Shown piece after piece: positions 12,565 to 13,354 of a DNA stretch of 33,292 nt. The notes below the pieces were generated by a model that worked only from the letters and a program-made list of their open reading frames with translations, did no database searches and was not told where the DNA came from. Source of the DNA: Candidatus Doudnabacteria bacterium (lineage in GTDB: Bacteria; Patescibacteriota; Doudnabacteria; UBA920); the NCBI GenBank assembly GCA_023245995.1, contig JAHFJH010000011.1, positions 1 through 33,292 of the forward strand. Direction: 5' to 3'. A program made the position numbers and the translations under genes. Every line of letters starts with the position of its first letter. Positions within the stretch are counted from its first letter, which is position 1.

Positions 12565-12599
12565 AAATAAAAATACCAGTTTGTCTGGTATTTTTATTT
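12565..12599. terminator. Bidirectional terminator between GT39 and the tRNA-Glu locus
   Basis: Perfect 15-bp stem AAATAAAAATACCAG / CTGGTATTTTTATTT. Confidence 0.85.
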
Positions 12600-12675
12600 G
12601 GTAGCGGTACGGGGAATCGAACCCCGATTTAGTGGATGTCCTCCAAAGGAGGATCCACCTCTGGTGGAAGAACCC
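12599..12675 (-). pseudogene. 3' fragment of tRNA-Glu with a palindromic insert in the anticodon loop
   Basis: 12599-12638 matches 12695-12734 of the intact tRNA-Glu with one mismatch (T-arm, acceptor 3' strand, CCA); then the 30-bp insert; then AGAACC matching the 5' side of the anticodon loop. Confidence 0.85.
12639..12668. repeat. Double-hairpin palindromic element 3 (30 bp) in the tRNA fragment
   Basis: Two 15-mers, TCCTCC-AAA-GGAGGA and TCCACC-TCT-GGTGGA. Confidence 0.9.
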
Positions 12676-12680
12676 TTGTT

Positions 12681-12787
12681 TTAAATTCTTTCTTTGGTAG
12701 CGGTACGGGGAATCGAACCCCGATTTTGTGGATGAGAACCACATATCCTAACCATTAGATGATACCGCCCCCAAAGAAAGAATTTAA
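12681..12787. repeat. Perfect 17-bp inverted repeat enclosing the intact tRNA-Glu
   Basis: TTAAATTCTTTCTTTGG (12681-12697) / CCAAAGAAAGAATTTAA (12771-12787). Confidence 0.97.
12695..12769 (-). tRNA. tRNA-Glu (anticodon CTC), CCA encoded
   Basis: GGCGGTATCATCTAATGGTTAGGATATGTGGTTCTCATCCACAAAATCGGGGTTCGATTCCCCGTACCGCTACCA; anticodon stem TGTGG/CCACA, loop TTCTCAT. Confidence 0.93.
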
Positions 12788-13029
12788 TTTGTGATAGTGT
12801 TATAGATCTCCTCTCTAGCTTGTGTGGTTTTTTTAAGATAAATCTCTCTTTTGCGAGCAGTAGTTTTATCTAAGAATGTTTCAGTATATATTAATGAAAA
12901 TGGTTTATAGGGTTTTGTAGATGTGGTTTTACCAGAATTGTGTTGAGCTAATCGTTTCTGCACATCAGAAGTTATTCCTATATAACGCCACACTCTTTTT
13001 GTACTTTGAATAATGTATAAATAATACAT
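12784..13029 (-). CDS. GIY-YIG nuclease family protein (single domain, about 81 aa)
   Basis: MYYLYIIQSTKRVWRYIGITSDVQKRLAQHNSGKTTSTKPYKPFSLIYTETF...KREIYLKKT. The ORF-track N-terminal extension is translated tRNA remnant. Confidence 0.92.
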   Translation of the reverse strand: MYYLYIIQSTKRVWRYIGITSDVQKRLAQHNSGKTTSTKPYKPFSLIYTETFLDKTTARKREIYLKKTTQAREEIYNTITN

Positions 13030-13047
13030 TTTTGTATTGTTTGGATG

Positions 13048-13077
13048 CCCTCCAAAGAAGGGTCCGCCTCTGGCGGA
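13048..13077. repeat. Double-hairpin palindromic element 2 (30 bp)
   Basis: CCCTCCAAAGAAGGG + TCCGCCTCTGGCGGA; homologous to element 3 with five pairing-preserving differences. Confidence 0.9.
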
Positions 13078-13090
13078 AGAACCACATATC

Positions 13091-13117
13091 TCCGCCATAG
13101 GCGGACCATATGAATGG
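13091..13117. repeat. Palindromic element 1 (27 bp) in the D-arm of the 5' fragment
   Basis: TCCGCC-ATA-GGCGGA + CCATATGAATGG; interrupts GGTTAG|GATATG. Confidence 0.88.
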
Positions 13118-13354
13118 CTAACCATTAGACGATACCGCCATAGTTAGTTGTTAGTGCTTAGTAATTAGTGTTTAGTAAGACCAAATTAACATCCTAAATT
13201 TCTTATTACTAATTACTTACTACTTATGGCTTTTACAACAATTCCAGCTTATTTTAGCAGGGATAAGAGAAAAAATAAAGAGCCTGTGGATGCATGCGCG
13301 CCTTGGCGCTATAATGTTAGTTACTTATTAGATTTGTTATTGTGAAGATTTTTT

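Follow-up and report, generated by a model that had tools for sequence, protein, structure and literature searches.

We judge with moderate confidence that a split tRNA-Glu locus of a Candidatus Doudnabacteria genome belongs to a widespread selfish family, in which a free-standing GIY-YIG nuclease is dedicated to one kind of tRNA gene. We observed the anatomy of the locus and its recurrence, nuclease lineages that match tRNA isotypes, an insertion polymorphism and purifying selection on the nuclease. The best reading is that the element carries or regenerates a replacement tRNA in a natural "cut and rescue" arrangement, with cleavage and mobility as its putative steps.

Anatomy of the locus and its genomic setting

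The window, the whole 33,292-nt stretch of contig JAHFJH010000011.1 that was analysed, contains on its minus strand a series of a tRNA-Glu 5' fragment, a GIY-YIG gene, an intact tRNA-Glu(CTC) and a tRNA-Glu 3' fragment with a terminal CCA. ARAGORN, Rfam, Pfam and alignment recovered all of these parts on that strand, in agreement with the coordinates, the order and the intact-tRNA call of the original prediction. The 5' fragment (13042..13139, minus strand) covers tRNA positions 1 to about 42-47 and aligned to the intact tRNA with a score of 58 (shuffled maximum, 22). It contains two hairpin inserts, identified from sequence and alignment: a 27-bp double hairpin in the D-loop after tRNA position 22 (13091..13117, minus strand) and a 30-bp double hairpin (13048..13077, minus strand) between positions 35 and 36, which splits the anticodon into CU and C and is also supported by covariation over 21 copies. 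The 3' fragment (12599..12675, minus strand, CCA included) covers positions 30-75, scored 77 against the intact tRNA (shuffled maximum, 20) and carries one 30-bp double hairpin, again between positions 35 and 36 (12639..12668, minus strand; sequence and alignment).

With the inserts removed, each fragment differs from the intact tRNA by a single substitution (A10G in the 5' fragment), as had been predicted. Likewise, the predicted junction GGTTCT-[30 bp]-CATCCA is common to both fragments. Each 30-mer consists of two 6-bp hairpins with 3-nt loops; the two differ at 5 positions, yet 12/12 pairs are kept. The pattern TCCGCCNNNGGCGGA, with one mismatch allowed, has a chance expectation of 0.03 occurrences in the window. 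The D-loop insert, which is a separate hairpin insertion, was not part of the original prediction, and neither were an inverted repeat at the intact tRNA and a second such architecture in the genome.

The nuclease gene (12784..13029, minus strand) encodes 81 aa and falls in the GIY-YIG superfamily (PF01541, E=2.4e-16, 60.2 bits versus a cut-off of 22.6). The protein has the motif residues Y, YIG, R26, H30 and E62, and Y5, Y16, G18, R26, H30 and E62 are invariant across nuclease alignment A1. It is without a separate DNA-binding domain, and its nearest solved structures are UPF0213 (1zg2/1ywl), followed by SLX1, a structure-specific rather than site-specific nuclease. Insert lengths of 27 and 30 bp keep the GIY-YIG frame open back through the tRNA fragment (13125-12784; 113 aa), and automatic annotation of the window could add a spurious N-terminal extension to the protein. 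The intact tRNA-Glu(CTC) (12695..12769, minus strand; ARAGORN; Rfam RF00005, 61.8 bits) is framed by a perfect 17-bp inverted repeat seen in the sequence. Its 17-nt left arm (12771..12787, minus strand) overlaps the stop codon of the ORF, and its right arm (12681..12697, minus strand) includes the CCA.

An Rfam scan of the window at gathering thresholds recognized no ribozyme and placed no group I intron or other intron family between the halves, and a group I intron in the tRNA was therefore rejected. An integrase-type tRNA island is likewise unsupported, as the GIY-YIG gene is the only notable ORF between the window fragments, which enclose no tyrosine or serine recombinase.

The same genome (G000; assembly 96% complete) holds the second architecture on contig C41, where a tRNA-Glu(TTC) locus comprises a damaged 5' fragment, a GIY-YIG gene, an intact tRNA and a pair of 3' fragments that each hold a double hairpin at 35/36. 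The C41 GIY-YIG protein is 44% identical to that of the window. Only two intact tRNA-Glu genes were found genome-wide, the window CTC copy, which is the only intact tRNA-Glu(CTC), and the C41 TTC copy. As both lie in cassettes, the tRNA-Glu supply of this genome appears to come from within nuclease cassettes.

Significant self-fragments were located near 8 of the 42 tRNA genes examined in this genome, and insert-bearing fragments (the inserts being mostly hairpins) were found for Glu(CTC), Glu(TTC), Ala, Ile, Pro and Thr. The tRNA-Pro locus has a truncated GIY-YIG gene and the Ala, Ile and Thr loci have none; one reading is a graded decay series. Strong leader-trailer inverted repeats outside the CCA were present at 11 of the 42 tRNA genes (shuffled mean, 1.2; maximum, 3). 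Nested arrangements were also noted. At L043 (G000:C6:6400-7700, about 1010-740, minus strand), a whole tRNA-Ile(GAT) lies in the D-loop of a decayed second tRNA-Ile, and its flanks form an inverted repeat. At L041 (G000:C16:11500-13300, about 690-380, minus strand), a broken tRNA-Thr copy is followed by an intact tRNA-Thr with GTAAACC on either side and complementary arms, a nested case without a nuclease.

Recurrence, tRNA isotype and an empty site

A nuclease profile search over 84,980 species genomes, with a query built from tRNA-linked proteins, yielded 80 GIY-YIG loci in Patescibacteria, Bacteroidota, Omnitrophota and others. A same-strand tRNA was present within 500 bp of 58 of these 80 related nuclease genes, and in 43 of the 58 the nuclease lay just upstream of the tRNA. 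Neighbouring isotypes include Glu, Ser, Leu, Arg, Pro, Asp, Lys, His, Cys, Gln and Ala. A fragment was counted as significant if it outscored all shuffles by 5 or more; by this measure 40 loci, among them the window, C41 and G018, hold 55 significant fragments of their neighbouring tRNA. Such fragments flank most of the tRNA-linked nuclease genes, and the architecture also recurs at G018, G041, G032 and G003. The search of related genomes suggested along with the original prediction thus found the cassette beside a broken tRNA of the same kind in about 40 loci from many phyla. The gene lies outside any intron or intein and adjoins its presumed target tRNA in most loci, as expected of a free-standing nuclease.

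As the profile query was derived from tRNA-linked proteins, the linkage rate was rechecked on an unbiased sample of 60 GIY-YIG genes, taken from 50 relatives and from points throughout the hit list. Eighteen of the 60 were within 500 bp of a tRNA, whereas the density in the 500-1500 bp bins predicts about 4; roughly one third of the GIY-YIG genes in this order may thus be of the tRNA-linked kind. Nine of the 60 preceded a same-strand tRNA by less than 150 bp.

The majority of cassettes lack a 3' fragment, and the reversed order, tRNA then GIY-YIG, was seen too. Fragment pairs overlap in the anticodon arm (positions 30-47 in the window; halves 1-41 and 17-73 at L075), so that the arm is present twice, once at each end, which a break at this place would be expected to produce. 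In most loci the fragment and the intact copy are near-identical, which fits recent or within-species events. At G018, L070 and L100 the sequence of the intact tRNA is unlike that of the broken one, which favours a whole tRNA having been carried in by the cassette at these loci. The intact tRNA of G018 has another acceptor and anticodon stem, and the fragments there match the usual tRNA-Glu of relatives. For loci with a 5' fragment only, a nuclease with a tRNA 5' half that regenerates the gene upon insertion would also do.

Several loci showed other arrangements. At L055 (G020:C26:1500-3000), an intact tRNA-Glu(CTC), a small ORF, a PIN-like ORF (judged by eye) and a 3' tRNA-Glu fragment with a 35/36 double hairpin form a like bracket, possibly with other, toxin-antitoxin-like cargo. 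A GC-rich structured stretch recurs past the tRNA terminators of L056, L061, L075, L095, L124 and L043; it has an inverted T-arm-like start (GAATCGAACGGG) in several loci, ends in a copy of the tRNA 3' tail and looks like another tRNA-associated element. In one family (L207, L236 and L250 in G013, G003 and G006), GIY-YIG genes are divergent from tRNA-Ser(CGA) at a distance of 50-177 bp, a second, opposite-strand arrangement.

Nuclease lineage followed tRNA isotype. On a tree of 84 proteins and 84 columns, with many open forks and a sample biased to Glu, the neighbouring isotype changed 24 times versus 51.9 times when shuffled, and 0 of 200 shuffles were as low. Glu alone accounted for 4 changes versus 21.1 shuffled, and the Leu, Arg, Ser and Pro isotypes cluster too. 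The Glu group comprises Patescibacteria and Bacteroidota, and the Leu group adds Omnitrophota to these. GIY-YIG genes unlinked to tRNAs, which had been named at the outset as evidence that would speak against a cassette, do make up about 70% of those in relatives, but they group in other regions of the tree. The nucleases are under purifying selection (dN/dS of 0.02-0.13 for pairs with finite dS). No flanking proteins are in common within the pairs L065/L074, L110/L111 and L115/L123, which is consistent with residence at different genomic places.

A presence/absence polymorphism at a conserved site was observed between C41 and its orthologous locus in a congener (G001:C6). The flanking genes are conserved (75% and 72% amino-acid identity) and the congener tRNA-Glu(TTC) is 97.6% identical to that of C41, with no tRNA fragment, nuclease, inverted repeat or duplicate tRNA at the site. 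The search for empty sites proposed with the original prediction thus found a clean tRNA-Glu at the locus orthologous to C41; for the window locus the comparison is partial. Clean tRNA-Glu(CTC) genes are present in G001, G002 and G008, and congener tRNA-Glu(CTC) genes lie near the same neighbours as the window copy but in another orientation. As this neighbourhood is rearranged, the synteny comparison is weaker there, and C41 provides the one clear case.

Hairpins in broken tRNA copies

In tRNA-Glu fragments an insert follows position 35 in 20 copies at 14 loci, always with a length of 30 or 31 bp, and a hairpin scan added four further tRNA-Glu loci. Stem variation is compensatory, with 66 double-change cells versus 22.9 shuffled and a covariation score of 0.506 versus 0.147 shuffled. 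Since the hairpin set was partly selected for pairing, the percentage paired is inflated and the double changes are more telling. Other isotypes carry other palindromes, e.g., CCTGCCTGCCGGCAGGCAGG, mostly in D-arm or anticodon loops, and insert types vary (30-bp double, 20-bp single and others). At L157 (G003:C43:3500-4700), a 5' tRNA-Glu fragment holds three 30-bp double hairpins (at about 13, 18 and 35) and one further hairpin, and the nuclease gene is frameshifted.

A looser single-hairpin pattern matched 10 sites genome-wide. Six are in tRNA fragments beside intact tRNAs; of the remaining four, two represent one dispersed double hairpin and two look like chance. Double hairpins also occur without a nuclease and, in some relatives, outside tRNAs, so the hairpins may be separate insertions rather than part of the cassette. 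Two adjacent hairpins, variable stems and dispersed copies, the features of double-hairpin elements, were all found. The best dispersed copies in relatives lie in TTTT^CA, the very sequence context of the tRNA-Glu anticodon loop. As the search model contained those columns, a TTTT^CA target motif is only suggestive, and an unbiased test of it yielded 4 hairpins in 335 kb, too few to be informative.

Proposed mechanism, alternatives and known systems

The original prediction described a minimal mobile cassette of nuclease and intact tRNA that had entered the anticodon loop. Its core stood up: a compact unit of the two recurs (about 40 loci), is absent from the orthologous site of the congener and sometimes has a differing intact tRNA. 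Entry in a single piece at the 42-bp block fared less well, as hairpins occur apart from the unit and the 3' fragment is mostly absent. A dedicated nuclease would cut the anticodon arm of its cognate tRNA gene in element-free cells, and repair off the carrier chromosome would copy the nuclease gene and a complete tRNA gene into the break. The host would retain a working tRNA, and the original would be left as one or two dead fragments. Hairpins in the dead copies (between 35 and 36 in tRNA-Glu) may keep these copies broken, and they probably remove the cleavage site and shorten the repeats usable for deletion of the element.

The replacement often has the anticodon-arm sequence of the dead copy and should therefore remain cleavable, which is the chief weakness of this account. 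The 17-bp inverted repeat, absent in clean congener genes, may bear on this, but such leader-trailer repeats also occur at other tRNAs of the genome (11/42). Counterpoints to homing are that the 81-aa protein is nearest to UPF0213/SLX1-type proteins, that hairpin-bearing tandem tRNA fragments without a nuclease occur at the Ala, Ile and Thr loci, that the larger part of relatives' GIY-YIG genes lie away from tRNAs and that viral contigs yielded no phage carrier. We propose only tentatively, as a possibility somewhat short of probable, a home-and-rescue class in which isotype-dedicated minimal GIY-YIG lineages would break an essential tRNA gene, provide a functional copy in its place and so spread across phyla, with hairpins marking and immunising the dead copies.

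Tandem tRNA duplication, in which spare copies decay and gain palindromes and a GIY-YIG gene, of a kind frequent in these genomes, is nearby by chance or through the insertion tolerance of tRNA loci, is unlikely. Hairpin-bearing fragments without a nuclease, palindromic elements dispersed in some relatives and the 70% of relatives' GIY-YIG genes that lie elsewhere agree with it, but it is already strongly weakened: nuclease lineage follows tRNA isotype across phyla, nuclease genes lie on the same strand just ahead of the intact copy, flanked by fragments of that tRNA, far more often than background, and the congener has no duplicate tRNA. Simple duplication and decay without a recurring cassette had been set against the original prediction; the cassette recurs. 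We also assign a low probability to a structure-specific GIY-YIG enzyme that moves or copies palindromes, with tRNA loops merely as preferred targets, as RAYT transposases move REP sequences. Nearly every tRNA fragment beside a GIY-YIG gene has a loop hairpin insert, such hairpins are almost confined to tRNA fragments in this genome, and the UPF0213 and SLX1 structures would suit such an enzyme. However, hairpin type varies while the nuclease tracks tRNA isotype, and the TTTT^CA contexts of the best-scoring dispersed copies, which match the tRNA-Glu anticodon loop, are partly circular because those columns were in the search model.

A toxin-like anticodon nuclease that cuts tRNA-Glu itself, with the hairpin fragments as decoy or regulatory RNAs, would account for the split point in the cognate tRNA's anticodon and for a layout that recalls a toxin beside a protective gene. 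It is nevertheless very unlikely, as GIY-YIG domains are known to cut DNA, the fragments vary and are frequently missing, and cutting of the gene explains the isotype match equally. A functional split or intron-bearing tRNA, whose halves are joined or spliced with the double hairpin as intron or pairing scaffold (cf. archaeal split tRNAs), would fit an insert within the anticodon at 35/36 and a hairpin structure conserved by compensatory changes. We regard it as extremely improbable, given that an intact copy with the same anticodon adjoins the fragments, that many loci have a 5' part only or a 3' part only, and that fragments are often further damaged (C41, G003).

If the reading as a dedicated tRNA-gene nuclease is true, tRNA-gene homing by free-standing GIY-YIG nucleases would extend from phages to the cellular chromosomes of many phyla, which suggests a gene-drive-like "cut plus rescue" logic around essential tRNA genes in nature. 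It would offer a possible reason for the abundance of small GIY-YIG genes in Patescibacteria and a possible source of tRNA gene turnover, and the dozens of isotype-matched nuclease-target pairs would be material for learning how an 80-residue nuclease picks its site. A search of mostly open-access papers on GIY-YIG and tRNA genes in CPR, Patescibacteria or Bacteroidetes turned up no account of a cellular version, although one may exist outside this coverage. The phage GIY-YIG homing family phrog_5123 gave a weak partial match (E=5e-4, 34 residues) to 1 of 3 proteins queried, and a nuclease-profile scan of IMG/VR viral contigs gave five weak matches only and no phage carrier.

Phage T4 SegB is the known system nearest in logic, and we class the present family with the free-standing GIY-YIG homing elements, as a distinct type with putative cleavage. 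SegB, itself a free-standing GIY-YIG homing endonuclease, belongs to the T4 tRNA region (PMC2988022), and phage SegB genes were frequently tRNA-associated in a 2026 study (PMC13096335); the enzyme cuts the tRNA region and drives the inheritance of that region (PMC2988022, PMC13096335). The present family shares with SegB a free-standing GIY-YIG gene adjoining tRNA genes, but it resides in cellular chromosomes of many phyla rather than in phages, and its proteins are smaller, at about 80 aa, and show no clear additional domain. Furthermore, its genes are bracketed by broken, hairpin-bearing copies of the adjoining tRNA and accompanied by an intact replacement, and its lineages are isotype-specific.

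Tyrosine-integrase islands integrate in tRNA genes and restore them. The present element resembles them in tRNA-gene insertion, a leftover fragment and retained tRNA function, but it is without an integrase, sub-kilobase and split in the anticodon arm, and it may carry a whole tRNA, sometimes of different sequence. Mitochondrial double-hairpin elements share with the present inserts a very small size, the double-hairpin form and dispersal within a genome. The present hairpins differ in being bacterial, in their fixed 15+15 bp format, in their linkage to GIY-YIG genes and in their concentration within the anticodon or D-loops of dead tRNA copies. Engineered home-and-rescue or cleave-and-rescue drives pair a nuclease against an essential gene with a linked working copy of it. 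The proposed arrangement would be alike in this pairing, but it is natural, its target and rescue would both be tRNA genes, and the rescue tRNA is often without visible recoding.
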